Under the pieces are notes generated by a model. The model was not told where the DNA came from. It saw nothing but the letters and a program-made list of their open reading frames with translations, and did not search any database. A stretch of DNA of 64,000 nt, taken from the NCBI RefSeq assembly GCF_000208865.1, contig NC_018396.1, positions 2,442,630 to 2,506,629 of the forward strand, read 5' to 3'. The DNA comes from Neospora caninum Liverpool (taxonomy: Eukaryota; Apicomplexa; Conoidasida; Eucoccidiorida; Sarcocystidae). How positions within the stretch are numbered: the first letter of the stretch is position 1; each line of letters begins with the position of its first letter. The position numbers and the translations under genes were made by a program. Below, in pieces: positions 19,098 through 38,636 of this stretch.

Positions 19098-22000
19098 ATG
19101 GCACACATGTCGCGAAGGCGCGTTCCGCCGTCTCGACAGGCCATCCTTCTAGGACGCCTGCTTCGCCCATTGGTCGTCTTCCTCTTTCTTCTGTCGTATC
19201 TTCTCTTTCTCCATGGAACCCTCTTTCCGATCGTCAACATCGAATCTGGTATGGTTCTTTTTCCAGGCGCAGGGGTTGCTGACCAGACCATGGCAATGCC
19301 TTCGACCCTCCAGAGTTTGTGGGAGGACCGGTGTTTCGTCCCTCTTTTCCTCGTTACCACTTTCTCCCTCTTTGTACCGTGTCTCAAGCTGGTGCTCTTC
19401 TTCATCTCAGTGGGCCTCGCTCCCCCAGCTGTGGGAGAATTCCAACCGGAGCGAGAGCAGAGAGAGGCAGAAGAAGGTGGAGACAGAGAGAAAGGAAAGA
19501 GTGAAGGATACCAGCAAGACAACGGGGAAAAATCGCGACTACGTCTGATGGGGAACGTTGGACAGTGGGAGGGCCTGTTCGTGGGGGAGGGGTCAGGGAG
19601 GTGGAGAGGAGAACGAGACGAGAGAGGAGGCGACCGAGACGCCAGAACGCGTTGCGAGGCTCGACTGTGTAGCAGCAGAGAGAGCGATTGCGTCACTCGT
19701 GTTTCCGCGGTTACTCTGTCGGATCTGAATTCTCCAGCGTCAACATCAGTTTCTTCTTCACGGCCTGAATCTTCCTCTTCGACGTCTTCGGGCAACGATT
19801 ACGAGAGGCAGGCTTGGACGCGAAAGTCACGAGGACGGTCTCTGGGGCCTCGACGTGCCGATCTCCGCACGAAAGCTTGGCTGTTCATTATGGGGTTCCT
19901 TCTGTTCATTTCGAAATACCAGCTGGTGGATGTGTACGTGTTCGTCCTGATGGTTCTTTTTGTCCACTTTCCGTTGGTGCGTGTGACACCACTGCCAGCC
20001 GCCTTCTCCTTCCTGTTCTACTGTATACTGTCGATCTTTGCAACCAAGTGTCTGTCGTGGGTCTTCACTGCCTTTCCCAGATCGACGCGACACACAACAC
20101 AGCCTCGGGGAGGCGGCGCTCGCTCTCGTCTTTCTCTGAGGAACCTGCAGACAGGTTTGGAGACCGAAAGGGACTCACGGGGGGACAGAGCCCCAGGGAC
20201 TTCTCCTGCTGCGCGACGGCGTCGAGTCCGCGAAGACACGGACGAAGAGAAAGGATGCAAAAACGGAGGTTTGCCCCACGCATCCGAGGAGAACAGGGTG
20301 AATAGAGGAACAGCGGAAGATGAATACGGAACTTATGGCGGCGAGGCTTCTTCCTTCGCCTTGTGCCCGGAACCGTCTTCTGCCGCAGAGGAACAACCTC
20401 CCCTCTTGCTCCTCTTGTCTCCAAGCCGAATGAATCCATTTGTGGACCCGACGGGTCGAGCCAGTGGAGTTCGAGGTTCCTGGCGCGGGGACGAACGCAG
20501 GGGGGGAAGTCGAGACAGCTCTCCTTTTGCTTCCGATCAGCCTAGAGGATGTGGCGGGTCGTTCATCTGTTGTGGATCTCGACACTTTCATTCGGTCTCG
20601 TCCCTCTGTTTTCCTTCGACCACCACATCCGCGACGCACGCAGCCTGTATTTGTCGCGATCCGGCGCCAGCATCTCGTCCCGCACTCGCATCGTGCCATG
20701 CCGTGTCTCCCCAGGCGTCTTCGCATGTGAGTTCTTCTCAACCGGAAGAAGACGATGTCGGAGTCGGCGAGTGTTTTTTTCGGACTATTTCCATCCTTTT
20801 GTTCACGCTGATTGCTGCCGTGAGTGCCCGCGCCGCCTGGTGCCTGCCCCTCCTGTATGTGGTGGTGGCTCTAGATGAGGAGAAGGCGATCGGCATCGAC
20901 GGCACGTTTCTCTCCCTGTCGCAACTTGCAGAGGAGTCGTTGTGTCTTGGCGAGTCCATCGTAGGTTTCGTTGTCCTGATTCTGTTTCCTCTTCTTGTCC
21001 CCTTCGCCCACCTTTTGGCGTCCTGCCTCGCGATGTTCATTACCCTTCTGCTTCGCCTTCTCCATCCGGGGCCCCGCTCTCGACGGCTGCCTCGCACGGG
21101 GGGGTCGCGGATCAAGAGGTGGTGTCGAACCTTGGGCCTTCCCATTCTGCTGAAACACCTGCTCTCCTACATGCTTTCGCTCTCGCAGTTCCTCACCTGC
21201 TGGGCGATGGCCGATGTCTTCGCTCTCGGCCTCTTTACTGCGTACTTCACCATCAATGCCGTTCATATTCTGGTCGCACGCATTCCGGCGGTCTCACCCT
21301 CCACGCCTGCGTTCGCCTCTTCGTTCTCGTGCCTCTCGTCCTCCCTTCTCTCTCCTTGCCGCTTGTTCTCGCGTTTCCTTCCACTGGAAAGCGCCCTTCC
21401 CTTCGGCTCGGGGTTCTGGGCCTCAATGGTCTTTGGTGCCTCAGCGTCCCAACTGCACCACCTGCTTCCTTCGCAGGTACGGATCGACAGAGTTGTCCGC
21501 ATGGCCTTGGGAGAAGAAAGGAAAGAGGACGAGACTCGCTTCGACCACGAGGGCACGGATGAAGCACGTGGCTGGGAGGAGTGGCAGTGTCGTGGCGAAG
21601 GATCAACAGGCGAAATGAAGCGCCGGCGTACGCCCGTTTCGCCTCTGGGCCCTCCCACGTCTGCCTCTTCCTATTCTCCCCCATCTTTTCTTTCAACGGG
21701 GGCTGTTGCCGCATCTTTCCCAGAGGCCGCACAAGAACCGCTCGGGTCCTCGCCTTCCTCGTCGTTCTGTGCAAGCTCTGCGTCGTGCTGCATTCCTCTG
21801 CCGGCCTCCCCGAGTAGGGGCCACGAAGGTGCGAGAGACGGTGGCTTCCCGAGATTCTTCTTCCCCGGCAGAGGCTCGTGCAAACGACGCAGGACAGGGC
21901 GAAATGCTGGCGCTACACGACCGCAGGAAGAGAGTCTCTTTTCCTGGAGAAAATCGGCGGAAGAAACGCCACACATGTCCCGGCTTTCGGTTCCCCTGCT

Positions 22001-24848
22001 CGCTCCCGATCCTGCCCCACTGCAGCATCTGCTTGATGTGTCTCGACCGTCTGAAGCTTTCGTTCGCTCTCGGGGTTTCCAGGATGAAGCAAAAGAAGGG
22101 GGCGAGTTCCTTCCTTCCCTAGCAGGCGAGCGCCAGGCGCTCGAGGCGTTCGCGGGGGAGATTTCCGACACAGAAAACGCAGTCGGTCCCTCGCCCGTTT
22201 GTCTTTTTGAGGCAAACACAAAAGGCAGAGGAGCCGGGAGTACGTCCGGCGTGAGGAGAGGGCCCCCTGAGGAGGGGCCAGCCGTAGGCAACTTGTGTGT
22301 TTGGAACCGAGAGAGACACCCTGAGCGAGAAGAGAAGACATCCGGCGAGGTCTGGTCCTCCGGCAGGACGGGGAAGGGGTTTCACCCAGGGATGTGTAGA
22401 CAGAACACGAGTAGGTATCGAGGGAGTTCGGGGCGTTGTCGCTTTCTCCCGTCTTCTCTCCTCTCTGCGCCTCTTCCTTCCTCGTCGCCCTTCCCTCGTC
22501 TGGCAGCCGATCTGCTGTCAGAGGTCCCTGGACAGTCAAATAGAGAGGCAGAAAGATGTACCGAAGAAAGGAAAACACAGACAGACGGCAATCCAAGACA
22601 TCTCCTCCACCTCTCTCTTCAGGTGTTTGGGCGCCTCGGAGTCGTTCTGACGCTCATTGTTGCCCTTTACGCCTGGCCGGCCGAGAAACCGAGGCACCTG
22701 GATCTCGATAAAATCGTAAGAAGACGTCTCACGAGCCTCTCGCCCACAGCCACATGCACACGTTTCTCCGTGTGCCGCACATGGAGCGGAATGTCTAGAC
22801 ACACCACAGTTCAACCGTGTTTTTACCAACTAAGCGAACGGGTGTCCGATTTGATCTTCTGTACTACCAATCAAATTCGTAACGTCCGGCCGCAAAGAAG
22901 AGAGAGGCATTGCCCGGGTTCGTCTTGCCTTTTTTTCTTTGTGTCTCTGTTTCCTCTCCGTTTCCATGAAGAGTACCATGATTTGTTCGTGTTGATTTTT
23001 CTGTTCAGGAACGTTTTTGTTTTCTTCGTGTGTCAGTCTTCTCTTCGTTCTACACCAGACAGAAAGACGCGCCTTGCATTGTGATCACGCCATTCGGTTG
23101 CTGTTTCTCTTCCGTCGCCGTTTTGTGTTTGCTTTTGCCTCCGGGGCGAAAAAACGGAGTGTTCTCTTAGCGGCTTTACGGTCGTTTTCTGACGCCCGAT
23201 CCTCTGGCCTTCTCAGTCTCCAGTGCTCTTCCTCGATGGAGCAACACAGTTTCCCATCCTTTCCGTCTTCGCTGTTTCTCTCTTTTGTCCCCTCGGTTCT
23301 CCGCAGAACGAAACAGTGGTCCTCTATTACCCGGCCATTTCTCAAGGTGCCCGGCCCCTCATTCCCGCATCCATCGGCAACTGCACAGCGGATAGCCCAG
23401 AGCCCCCACCAGAGCCTTGCGTCGGCCACAACTTCCTCTATCACTCCCGAAACGCCTACTACGAGACCACAGCCAGATGGGTTTCGGGTGTCAATACGAC
23501 GGATATCGAGGAGATTCGCTTGAGCGGTCGAGACCCGCAACGGGAGACGGCGCGTAGGGAAGGTGAAGACCCATTTTGGTGAGTTTTGTCTGTCTCGTAG
23601 CAACCGCGAAACGTCTTGTTTGGACGTTTGGCCGTCCTGTGAAGCGGGGCACCTATAAGGGGGCGGCGCGCAGAGGAAAAGGAGTGAGAGAGGACGAAAG
23701 AGGAGAAAGGAAACAGAGCGCTGAGGGGCAAAACGTACAGTGAAAAAAGCAGGCCTCACGTCACGGCAGACGCGGTTGTGACTCTATGTGTCCAAGTGTT
23801 TTTAAGCCGTCAGTCGTGGGTTGGAAAAAACCAACTCACGGTCACTGTGAATGGGAGCTGAGAGGGAGGCAGTATGAGGGGAGGGGGAGAAGAAGAGGCC
23901 TTTCCCGGGGGAAAGGAAACAGTGTTTTCTGGTCTCAGTGGAGCCACAATTCGAGGCACCAGTCCAGGACAATCCACGGTGAAGGTGGTCGGTGTTTCGC
24001 GTGACCCTGGGAAAGAAGGCTGTCGGAAAGAGCAGGCGTTTTAGAGGGCAGGTAACAATGAACAGAGAAGAAGAACAGTGGTCGTAGTGCCTGTAGAGCG
24101 TACGTTCTACTGAGGCAATTCTCATGTATTTTTCTCTGAGAATAGGCAAGCGGATTTCGTATCTGTTTTGTGTCTCTCTCCCCTGTTTCGCTGGCATCTA
24201 GTTTGCAGTGTGTACGTCGTTTCCTCCTTGTCGTCTGTACTTGTGATTTTCTCGTTTGATCCGCCACCGAATCTGTCTGATTCGCGCTTCCCTCCCCTTC
24301 TTTTTCGCTTCATCCACAGGATATCAGTCGAGATCAGTGGCCGAATCGCCGAGCTGAATCTTTCTCTTCGTATCGGCCAGTGCCTGACTCCCGATTCGTG
24401 GAGGTCACCCACGTGCGACACCCTGTGGGATAACACGACAAGTTGCTGCGGGAAGAACATAACCTTTGCAGCTCGGTTCGAAGCCCGGTGCACAGACACG
24501 CCTCCGACGTATCTCTCTGTTTTCAGTATCACGGATTTCCACGTCTCGCCTCTCACCATAAATGAATCCGTTCTTGGCCTCTTCAGTGTCACAGTGGCGA
24601 CGATTACAGAAGCCGTCGAGCGCGAGCTAACGCGTCTCATTCAGGCATATCTAGAGCCAGACAACAACTTCATTCCTTGGGACAAAGACACCAGAATTTC
24701 TCTGCAAGCGCTTGTTAATCACCTTGCGGTGGTTAACGCTCCGGGGGGCCTTCTCTGCAGACCCTCTCCTGGGACGTCGACTAGTCTTTTCGACACGCAA
24801 GCGAAGCCCCGGGAAACGTCAGAGGCAGAAACTCACGAAGAATTCTGA
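19098..24848 (+). CDS. Tandem PqiA-like multi-pass membrane protein with N-glycosylatable C-terminal domain
   Basis: Membrane protein with two PqiA-type units (PqiA/LetA are inner-membrane partners of MCE lipid-transport proteins in bacteria). Exons 19098-22715, 23307-23578 and 24320-24848 join in phase to give 1472 residues. Unit 1: a helix near 20-45 ending in FPIVNIE, then an SLWED loop and a helix near 72-97 containing VPCLKL, then helices near 257-310 including KYQLVDVYVF. Unit 2: helices near 560-650 and a CWAMADVFALG helix near 690. A Ser/Arg/Glu-rich linker of about 370 residues leads to a last helix near 1175-1195. The final 265 residues carry seven N-X-S/T sites (NET, NCT, NTT, NLS, NTT, NIT, NES) and many Cys, so this end is probably lumenal or extracellular. 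The bacterial zinc-ribbon cysteines are not seen. The PqiA match rests on motif order; substrate unknown. Confidence 0.8.
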
Positions 24849-34300: not shown

Positions 34301-37300
34301 AGCTGAACCCCCAATCGAACACGGGGGGCGCTTTGAGGCCCGCCGTGTCTGCCAAAAGGAACACAGATCGTCTCGTGCACACACAGAGAGGAAGGCTTTA
34401 GTGGCCTTTCTCGGAAAGGAGAGAAAAGCGTTTTCCCCGCCTCGCACTCTCAGGCACCACACTCTGTAGGCCGCGGAAGTTGGTAGACTACGCCGCGTGT
34501 CGCTCCCTTCATAAAAGGCGCCGAGCAACGCGAGCAAGTGTCTACTCTCCCAGAGACACAGCCTGTTCTTGCGGGGGGGGGGGGGGGGGGGGGGGAACAA
34601 CGGTAGGGTGTGCGACTTATTTCGTCAAACTTCAGAGCGCTGCTTCCCCGCTGTCGCTTTCGCGAGACATCGTGGAGCGGGAGAATCTGTGGCACACGTG
34701 TCTGCAAAGCATCCGCTCACGTGGAGAATGTTGGCAGCGTTGCACCAGTTGTGATTGAGAGCTATGCAGTCCGTCACGTTGCACACGCGGTGGTGCACGT
34801 GCGAGGGGACGTAGATACACTCGCCGGGAAACTGCAGAAGGGCGTCGAGAGGACGGGGACACAAAGCCAGAGAAGGAGTCACCGCCGAAGGCGAAGGGGG
34901 AGAAGAGCACCCCTCGGGGGAAGGCAAAGACGAAGACGCGGGGGCAGAAGGCGAACAAATCGCCGGCGAAGGCCGCGACGGAGAGAGACGGCCACGCTCT
35001 CGGCCGCGCCGGTGGCTTCGCCCGCAGGTGCTGCACGGCTGCGACGCGGCTGGAGCCTCTCTGCGTTTCGCTGGTGCATGCGCTGCGCCCTTCTTCCGCG
35101 CTCCGCTCACGCCTTCTCGAGTCTTGTCTCTGCACATCGGGCAACCGCGAGAAGAGGAAAGACCCACAGGACAACAGGACGAGCCCGGGGCTGCCGGTGA
35201 AGACACAGACGACGCAGAGGAAGGTTCTGAAGACGGCGCCGACACCGCGGGAAGCTGCAGACGCCCGGCTGCACGCCGCTTCGTGCGCTCAAACACCCAG
35301 CGCTTGATCCCGCAAACGTTGGCCGACCAGCTGCTAGTTCCGAGCACGTCGCTGTGCCACGGCGTGCGCGTTCCCCGCGGGCCGAGGTAGGCGAAGCGGT
35401 AGTCCTCCCCGGACCGAATCGGGCACTTGAGAAACCAGTCGTCTTGGAAGAACGTGGGGACATGGTAGAATTGCGAGGCGAAGTAGAGGTGAGACTCTTC
35501 GCCTTCGGTGTGACGTTCTGGCGACCAGGACTCCCTGCGCAGTTCGCTTGGCCTCCCTTCCTCGCCTCCATATGCGTTCACTTCGTCCACGGAGTTTCGA
35601 GACTCTCGCCAGGGTCCCCTTCGAGCCGCCGGCTCCTGGAGCCTAAGCTGCAGCTCTTCAGACGATTCCGTTCGTTTCCTCTCCGAGCCCCGACCCGCTC
35701 CACTGGACGTGCCCCACAGCGGCACGCCAGTTTCCTGGTATTGGTCGGCCTCGCTGCTCGGCTTCTCGTCTTCGGCTCTCTCCTGGGCCTTTCGCTCCTC
35801 CACGACAAAGTGCCAGTCTGCGAGGTACCACGGCGACACGGAACGCGACAGCTCCGCAGCGATTTGCTTCTCCTCTGGAGAGAGCGATGCCCCCAGACTC
35901 GTGGAAAAAGAACATGGACGTCTTTCTTTGCGGACGAAAGGAGACAGAGCGGGTGTGCAATCGGATATGTCCGCTTGGTCTCTCTCGGACTTCACACGGC
36001 TGACAGGCAAGTCCCACTGCCGAGGGATCCTTCCGGTCTGCGCTTTTTCGCTGGCCTCTTGACCGGCTTCCTCTGCCTTCTCCATCTCATGTTCCTTCTC
36101 CCGCTTCGTCACCCAGTAGTGAAGGAAAACATCAAACGGCACTGTGCGCCGGGTCCCCGACGACGTCACTGCGCCTCGAGTTCCCTCGTAATCTTGCGCG
36201 ACTTGCGTGGGATCTTTGTCTCGCTCCCCACTCTGTGCGTGAGGACGATCGCTGTGTGAGCAGCTGCATGCGCCGTTCGTCGTGCAGGCCCAAGACACGA
36301 TCGGCACCTGAACTGACGTAGGCCTTGCCAGTTCCTCCGCACGCGTCTCTTCTCGCTCGCCTCCCCGTTCTTCTCTATGTCTCGTCTCTTGCCTCCTTTT
36401 CTCTGCTGCTCCTTCCTCTCCCTCCAGGTGTTCCCCCCCTGCGGGGTGCCTACCTTGCTCTGCTCCCTCTCGTGCTTTTTCCTCACCTTTTGCTTCTCGC
36501 TTTCCAGTCAGTTTCGTGTCCCTCTCAGCACTCCTCGCGTCTCGTCCTTCTCCTTCTCCCCGTTTGACCTGTGCGTCGCTGCGCGCCTGCCGTGTCCAGC
36601 GCTGGGCGCCTACGCGCCCAGAGAACGCGTTTTGCAGCCGCACCAGGTCAGGCTGCCCGAACCACGCGGCCTCCGAGGGAGGCAGAAAGAAGGACGAACA
36701 ACTGCAACACGTGCATGCGGGAGACACATCCTCTGAGGATACCCTCGAGGTGCCCTCGTGGGGTTGTGGGAGAGACATACGATGGAGATCTGCAACAAGG
36801 CTCGCGTCTCCTGCCGACCCTGGCGCAGCCGGAAGTAGGGAGGCGGAACCCACACCAGTCGCAGGGAGTTTGATGACGCTGCGCGGTCTTCCTTCCCTTC
36901 TCGCTCGGCTCCTCACGAGGGCGGATCGAAGAAGGGCGTCTTGCAGGCGCGAACAGGAATGAGCGGAATAAGACGCAGCAGTCCAGCCATCACGAGAAAA
37001 AGATGAAGAGGTAGACGAGGGAGAGGAAGAAGAGGTAGAGAAACGAGGAAAAGAAGAGGAAAGAGGGTGTGCCGTTGCGAGGGTGGCAGAGGCTGGGGCA
37101 TGCGAGCAGGTGTTCTGTCGCTGCCGACTGGTTTCGTTCAAGGCGTCCTCGGAGCTGTTCACCCATTGCTTGAAGGCAGGCCAAGATGTAGACACACCAC
37201 GAATCACCACAGGCCTTCGGGCACACAAGTATTTTTCAAGGAAAGTCTCATACGAGAGATCCTTGTGGTCCCAAACATCGACGAAGTCCAGCAGGTCGTC

Positions 37301-37393
37301 TTCGTCCTCCTCTGCTTCGGAGTCCCCTTCCATCGCTTGCTCTTTCTCCACCTTCTCTCCACTCCCTTCCGCCTCTTCGCCATCTCTCTTCAT
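31356..37393 (-). CDS. JMJD4: JMJD4-like JmjC-domain hydroxylase with very large insertions
   Basis: Predicted Fe(II)/2-oxoglutarate oxygenase; human JMJD4 hydroxylates the translation terminator eRF1. Minus-strand exons 37393-34721, 34153-32602 and 32383-31356 are in phase (0, then 1) and give 1750 residues. The first exon holds the N-terminal FLEKYLCARRPVVIRG segment (about 50-70), a DWHF motif, the TPWHSDV motif with iron ligands His680 and Asp682 followed by SWSANVCG, and the distal histidine in VPSHVHHR (867/868), ending in NHNW. Exon 2 holds the helical part after the JmjC core (SANCGVTFFDF matches the equivalent human segment) separated by acidic, Arg-rich filler. Exon 3 adds an unrecognised tail with a leucine-rich helix. 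The ATG at 37393 is the first in its frame. The human protein is under 500 residues, so most of the length is insertion. The stop at 31356 is less certain than the catalytic exon. Confidence 0.85.
34573..34595. repeat. Run of 23 consecutive G
   Basis: An unbroken G run on the plus strand, so a C run in the JMJD4-like transcript. It lies inside that gene's first intron (34154-34720), near the middle. Such runs are often length-variable and hard to sequence, so the exact count may be unreliable. Confidence 0.9.
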
Positions 37394-38636
37394 TCCCCTT
37401 TCAAAGACAGAGTCAATTTTTCCTTCCAACCTGCAAGCGGCGCTGCGGTGCCGTACGTGTGCGACGCACGCCCGAGTGACTCTGGACTCTCGGCCGGAAA
37501 ATCCCTTTTTAACAGAAGGAAAATCAGCTCCAGGGGACTCCCCACAGGAGGAAGGATTCAAAAATGGTGAGGACAAGGTATCAAAAGGAGAAAATGAAAC
37601 TCAAAGAGAAGACCAGCCGCGGAGTGTCTCCGGAAAACGTTTTGCATGCAACAAAATTGCGTTCGCCATTGCATGCCCCCTTCAAAAGCAGGAATAAGGT
37701 AAACCAACACACCAGACTTTAAAGCTATGCGTTGAAGGACAATGCAAAGTGCTTGAACGGATTTCATGGGAAAACTATAGATTCGCCCCGTAGACGAACA
37801 TCTAGCTGCTAACATTCACTCAGTCCCGAGACAAGTGTTCTACCGCGTAGGAACTGGTTGGCCGGCCTTCCAGCGGTGCTAATGCCTTGTTACAGAAAGC
37901 CGGAAAGTGCTGAATCCTTGAAATCCCGGGGAGCAGCTCAAAGGTAACGGAAATGCGGCCTTCCAGGAGAAACCCTTCATTGAAAACCCGCTAACTGCGG
38001 ACGAAACCCTACCACTCTGGAGCTCAAAACAAGTCTACCTGAAAAGACTCGGCCTCATCCCCCAGCTAGTGCTTTTATCTGGATTTTTCATGTGCATGGT
38101 AGGTAAGACAGATAAACTGGATGGCAGCATCTCCGTGACGCCAGAGTGGATGAAGAAACAAGTGCGTTTGCGGTATCAGGGTGCCCTGAGTTTCAACACT
38201 AGTGGATGAACCTTTCCGACTCGCCGTTACCAGAAAAAACCCTATATGCGCGAAGGCGGTGGTCATGCGCTGCGCAGAAGAGATATTCGGCTCTCTGAGA
38301 GTGAAAAAGGTGGCCGGCGTCTAGACAGCGAAAGAAACGACCCTTCATCTTTGCATCTCGTTTCCTGTCACAGCGAGGATCGAAGCTCCAGAGCTACGTT
38401 TCTGCCGGGAGAACCGGGACCGACAAAAAAGCAGACTCTTTGAGCTCTACTGAAGGTTACTCCTGGCGTCTCGTTAGAGTGTGTGTGACCGCTGACGCAC
38501 AGAACGCTCCCATGGTCTGTAGTAAGTTAACATTGAAACGTATCCAGTGTAAAGTTTGAACTTAACGCAGCTTAAATTGCTATGTTGCTACGTTAATCAA
38601 ATAAGTTTCAGCGTTATTGACATTTCATTGACATGC

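Follow-up and report, generated by a model that had tools for sequence, protein, structure and literature searches.

PqiA-type modules and a conserved, glycosylatable ectodomain predicted on a single chain in Neospora caninum and three further coccidian genera

Bacterial PqiA and LetA are thought to take lipid from the bilayer and to pass it to MCE partners. Escherichia coli encodes both proteins next to separate MCE partners, and ahead of each module their sequences carry a CxxC zinc ribbon. The structure of LetA was reportedly described in 2025; LetA structures are held in the PDB as 9n8w and 9n8x. On the eukaryotic side, protists and amoebae have lipid-binding CETP/BPI proteins in which a PqiA domain serves as the anchor (Wong and Levine, 2017; PMC5507252, section 2.1). 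Among parasites, the Leishmania adleri gene LaHO174_262450 is annotated as PqiA (PMC5335649). Here we examine a gene on the forward strand of a 64,000-nucleotide stretch of Neospora caninum Liverpool DNA (contig NC_018396.1, positions 2,442,630 to 2,506,629; below called the window, to which coordinates refer). N. caninum is a parasite of cattle and dog, and the genome holding the window comprises 57.5 Mb in 14 contigs. By sequence comparison we show that a single chain combines putative PqiA-type modules, a consistent predicted topology and a conserved, glycosylatable ectodomain.

The coding region spans 19098..24848 of the + strand and encodes 1472 residues plus stop, the span and length given in a preliminary description of this DNA. 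It consists of three exons with canonical splice signals. Exon 1 (19098..22715, +, residues 1-1206), delimited by the open frame, the donor GTAAGA and the aligned relatives, carries both PqiA-type modules, three long inserts predicted to be cytosolic, and a ninth helix. Exon 2 (23307..23578, +; acceptor CCGCAG, donor GTGAGT) starts the C-terminal domain, and exon 3 (24320..24848, +; acceptor CACAG) supplies its remainder and the stop; the relatives are concordant with both. The encoded protein matches N. caninum Liverpool entries in UniRef and NCBI (P0001, P0005), and the deposited annotation of the gene is hypothetical or transmembrane protein only. The protein models from Toxoplasma (P0003), Hammondia (P0002) and Besnoitia (P0004) run through both exon junctions, i.e., they represent the same fusion. 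TGGT1_224935 is the presumed Toxoplasma orthologue. The Besnoitia model is short at its 5' end and begins at transmembrane helix 3 (TM3), so that the first two helices are covered by three species only. Immediately ahead of the second junction lies a variable stretch which is 18 residues shorter in Neospora. From the C-terminal domain of both deposited Neospora proteins a stretch of 69 residues is missing which the Toxoplasma, Hammondia and Besnoitia models possess; the splice sites of the window support the longer C-terminal form (24320-24848). Three protein searches found no relatives outside these four genera. Two of them scored the 7992 and 7997 candidates with most words in common with the query, and the third 1420 candidates; query words in the 7997-candidate search came from residues 1-500, mostly membrane part. 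Going by the protein models, the fusion is so far conserved across four genera of coccidia.

The evidence for PqiA membership of the membrane part comes from two types of profile comparison. The raw Neospora open reading frame (ORF) scores 23.4 bits against Pfam PqiA (PF04403; E 5.9e-5, two stretches), just below the cut-off of 23.8. With the loops removed, the Toxoplasma sequence reaches 31.7 bits (E 1.7e-7) and exceeds this cut-off. The preliminary description had left room for PqiA scoring no better than other polytopic families. When tested this did not occur: the loop-removed sequences of all four species match PqiA (best E 4.3e-8) and no second family among the 24736 of Pfam at E<=5, within HMMER filters which discard most matches above E of about 0.1. 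When all six frames of the genome are scanned, PqiA is matched twice at E<=10 (E 0.0145 and 0.288; 20.3 and 16.1 bits), each time within this gene and once per module (19866-20054 and 20952-21263); at E<=0.001 no match is left, not even in this gene.

For the second comparison a bacterial PqiA profile was assembled from E. coli PqiA, LetA and 10 of 80 kept loci, 12 sequences in total, all from enterobacteria and relatives and therefore of low diversity. Block shuffles which preserve the hydrophobic layout served as controls, 60 per module comparison. The whole membrane part attains a best score of 45.8 against this profile, compared with maxima of 24.1 in 60 full shuffles and 30.3 in 60 block shuffles. 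Aligned with hhalign, Neospora module 1 scores 44.4 against bacterial module 2 (block shuffle maximum 17.4) and a non-significant 20.4 against bacterial module 1 (shuffle maximum 22.4). For module 2 the scores are 27.9 with bacterial module 1 and 29.0 with bacterial module 2 (block shuffle maxima 23.2 and 20.1), over just 18 and 24 aligned columns. Bacterial modules 1 and 2 align with each other at 66.6; the two Neospora modules have no resemblance to each other (14.2, shuffle maximum 21.9). By these profile criteria each of the two modules belongs to the PqiA type; for module 2 the match is confined to a short stretch. The loop-removed Pfam matches and the block shuffles thus uphold the earlier claim of two PqiA-type helix sets in one chain. 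Such a tandem set is not special, since E. coli PqiA and LetA hold two modules each.

Two observations on the modules stand apart. The first Neospora module (19155-20075) resembles the bacterial second module and not the first, which hints at another module history or order; the second Neospora module lies at 20757-21497. Paralogues are hardly visible in the genome: beyond the gene itself module 2 has matches at E 0.065 and 1.22 only, and the C-terminal domain at E 4.64 and 9.42 only. The better of the module 2 matches (locus L009, G000:C14:1154362-1154487, - strand) shows 48% identity over query residues 89-134 and is perhaps just a hydrophobic stretch.

Helix limits were placed by hand from hydropathy. 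Module 1 (19155..20075, +, residues 20-326; Pfam PqiA and hhalign) comprises TM1-TM4; TM2 and TM3 are separated by an insert of 149 residues. Module 2 (20757..21497, +, residues 554-800; hhalign) contains the Pfam PqiA stretch at 20952-21263. Profile alignment identifies VPCLK (19374..19388, +, residues 93-97) as counterpart of VPTLK in bacterial module 2, and KYQLVDVY (19914..19937, +, residues 273-280) as counterpart of bacterial RWSMIDVF. Of the two Neospora modules, the first carries the paired bacterial motifs VPxxK and D. In module 2, WAMADVF (21201..21221, +, residues 702-708) corresponds by profile alignment to bacterial W-x-M-x-D/E-x-F, and VPFAH stands where bacterial module 2 has VPTLK. 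A long, poorly conserved insert follows, predicted to be cytosolic (21498..22595, +, residues 801-1166; 48 Lys plus Arg, 48 Asp plus Glu, one N-glycosylation sequon). The final helix is present, TM9, placed from hydropathy at 22596..22670 (+, residues 1167-1191); the hydrophobic stretch covers residues 1169-1195.

If the N-terminus is cytosolic, the eight predicted helices of the modules together with TM9 bring the C-terminus to the lumenal or extracellular side, and the features of the loops are consistent with this nine-helix topology. All three inserts (149, 227 and 366 residues) lie on the predicted cytosolic side, and the remaining loops are short (36, 4, 23 and 44 residues). The N-terminus contains four and loop 6-7 eight Lys plus Arg, with no Asp or Glu in either. 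Loops 1-2 and 5-6 have one Lys or Arg each versus four and six Asp plus Glu. Helix parity is least certain at module 2, where the fourth helix is weak and falls below the hydropathy threshold; the AlphaFold model of this module has a predicted local distance difference test (pLDDT) score of 58.

The C-terminal domain carries seven sequons in the last 266 Neospora residues versus 2.2 expected by shuffling (p 0.0023). In the four species its 281-301 residues contain 7, 7, 7 and 9 sequons (shuffle p 0.0021, 0.00195, 0.0038 and 5e-5); five sequons and all eight Cys are common to all of them. Because the predicted cytosolic inserts hold sequons as well (1, 4, 3 and 0), counts alone are no proof of side, and the argument is carried by conservation and helix count. 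The domain is identical to Toxoplasma in 214/281 positions and to Besnoitia in 175/281, compared with 148/359 and 72/289 in the adjoining insert (residues 801-1166). Its conservation is about that of the helices and greater than that of the long inserts. Hydropathy and sequons agree with the preliminary description, which had a final helix followed by a domain with seven N-glycosylation sites; it had also put this glycosylatable domain on the same chain and outside the cytosol, as helix count and loop features predict. Its term Cys-rich is inappropriate as to composition, with 8 Cys in the C-terminal 266 residues and 34 in the first 1206; the notable feature is that all eight Cys are conserved in the four species. 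A tetraspanin-like CCG motif was considered and dropped since its placement does not fit.

How does this protein compare with the described systems? With bacterial PqiA and LetA/YebS (PF04403) it shares two modules per chain, PxxK and W-x-M-x-D type motifs and a significant profile match. It differs by the absence of zinc ribbons, the long cytosolic inserts, the ninth helix, the C-terminal ectodomain and the lack of a detected MCE partner. Like the CETP/BPI-PqiA proteins, it is a eukaryotic chain uniting a PqiA membrane part with a domain outside the cytoplasm. Going by the published description (PMC5507252), PqiA is C-terminal in those proteins, whereas in Neospora the PqiA-type part comes first and the ectodomain last, and the latter has no CETP/BPI match. 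The protist and amoebal fusions in print weaken the early notion of an undescribed system, which is not supported in its general sense, and at the same time they make a lipid reading more plausible. What is new here is the reversed order, PqiA-type part first and glycosylatable ectodomain last; the general idea of a fusion was already published. Apicomplexan PqiA, or this gene by name, was not found among the papers listed in searches of the open-licence literature.

We tentatively favor, with a confidence slightly short of even, a nine-helix coccidian member of the PqiA superfamily whose modules would present lipid and whose ectodomain would replace the MCE carrier. The membrane modules would draw lipid from the bilayer and offer it on the extracytoplasmic side, in line with current ideas about bacterial PqiA and LetA. 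There the ectodomain might receive or deliver the lipid in place of a separate MCE carrier or tunnel. The absence of a visible MCE domain had been noted at the outset. It persists in the C-terminal domain and, at six-frame sensitivity, in the genome, where an unspliced search finds no MCE match (PF02470) at E<=10; matches were obtained in 4 of 14 control genomes.

Several points weigh against this proposal. To begin with the last one, the MCE search is weak because the same type of search at E<=0.001 missed the PqiA gene itself. In bacteria, transport by PqiA is treated as conditional (PMC10897342). Zinc ribbons are absent: residues 1-19 have no Cys and the 114 residues ahead of Neospora module 2 no CxxC. 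Neither Toxoplasma nor Hammondia has a CxxC before module 2; one is present in Besnoitia only, at a position that is not shared. Over the whole membrane part the alignment of module 2 scores 30.5, barely above the best block shuffle of 30.3. A PDB sequence search with a loop-removed profile of the whole protein has no match at E<=10, LetA included. The bacterial-profile matches, the absent zinc ribbons and the missing PDB match jointly place the protein in the PqiA superfamily as a divergent member rather than as a canonical PqiA or LetA. As to topology, the long inserts are charge-balanced (Lys plus Arg/Asp plus Glu 26/26, 29/28 and 48/48) and loop 7-8, at 2/1, lacks an acidic character, hence charge supports the topology from four segments only.

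Further adverse points concern the structural models and the ectodomain. For module 2, Foldseek with the AlphaFold model built from 15 sequences (pLDDT as above) gives a best E of 0.79 and nothing convincing among the best 50 of 68 matches, and LetA is not among these 50. The AlphaFold model of the C-terminal domain (three sequences) has a pLDDT of 31; its best Foldseek match has E 0.086 (BF3112, 40 columns, TM-score 0.13), and none is convincing among the best 50 of 269. In view of their low confidence the models were weighed neither for nor against. In three of three sequences the C-terminal domain has no Pfam match at E<=10, the lipid-binding families (CETP/BPI TULIP) and MCE included. Two loop-trimmed versions retrieve just RNA_pol_A_CTD from Pfam, in one case and at E 0.26, taken as chance. 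Against PDB sequences nothing appears beyond ribosomal P0 at E 1.4. NCBIfam yields no match, and a scan of viral and bacterial contigs yields 41 and 104 pattern stretches and no relative. Against the BPI/LBP/CETP profile the domain scores 14.4, a value attained in 38 of 150 shuffles; against the Takeout profile it also scores 14.4, with 80 shuffles averaging 13.4 and reaching 20.4. The positive control of this test failed, BPI against Takeout scoring 16.6 with a maximum of 19.5 in 80 shuffles. With the control at shuffle level, the TULIP profile test says nothing either way.

The most serious competitor, possible but doubtful in our judgement, accepts a PqiA-derived membrane part and takes the ectodomain for a receptor, adhesion or protein-interaction domain, with the PqiA part anchoring or regulating it and no lipid being handed over. 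A domain of this kind fits relatives that are confined to four coccidian genera among the 1420 candidates, and Cys and sequons that are conserved without a match to any lipid-binding family. VPFAH in place of VPTLK in module 2 and the absent zinc ribbons point in the same direction. Against it, module 1 retains PxxK and D as in the bacterial module it matches, and the published parallels couple PqiA to lipid-binding domains.

A narrower version of the lipid hand-over proposal, overlapping with it in probability and by itself rather unlikely, regards the C-terminal domain as a CETP/BPI-type TULIP, i.e., the protein as a protist TULIP-PqiA member in reversed order. CETP and BPI contain two TULIP units, whereas about 265 residues offer room for one. 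A hydrophobic-moment scan of the domain finds 42 strand-like windows versus 24.7 in shuffles, an excess of p 0.061 only. Amphipathic windows are strand-like at about residues 1293-1311 and 1342-1349 and helix-like at about 1389-1401. The lack of a Pfam TULIP match at E<=10 and hhalign scores at shuffle level speak against a TULIP. A genome scan with PF01273 is uninformative, having no match here nor in any of 14 control genomes. A TULIP-like fold is nevertheless our leading guess for the domain, resting on the precedent of the protist PqiA-CETP/BPI fusions (PMC5507252) and on the non-significant strand and helix patterns.

Still less probable, to our mind distinctly unlikely, is a lipid exporter or importer consisting of one chain, with an origin independent of the published TULIP-PqiA fusions; its ectodomain, glycosylated and disulphide-bonded, would bind lipid through a new fold and replace MCE carriers. 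Finally, a chance likeness between hydrophobic proteins or a gene model fusing two genes, to which one might attribute the raw ORF slightly below the Pfam cut-off, the dissimilarity of the two modules and the failure of PDB sequence search and Foldseek (best 50 of 68) to find LetA, is most improbable, as 60 of 60 layout-preserving block shuffles fall below the observed scores for both modules and the same fusion occurs in the Toxoplasma, Hammondia and 5'-short Besnoitia models.

Elsewhere in the window, an ORF of 983 residues at 34628-37576 (-) matches Cupin_8 (E 2e-11) and JmjC (E 1.3e-10) and is probably a gene for a JmjC-type hydroxylase. The remaining eight of nine window ORFs scanned have no Pfam match at E<=0.01. 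Over the whole window ARAGORN reports no tRNA or tmRNA, and no Rfam match reaches its gathering score.

The passage of lipid from bacterial PqiA and LetA to MCE proteins is still being worked out. If the proposed role of the same-chain ectodomain is true, the hand-over step could be studied in one polypeptide. Toxoplasma and Neospora scavenge host lipids, and the protein would add a candidate route of lipid movement in these parasites. The presumed Toxoplasma orthologue makes this directly testable.

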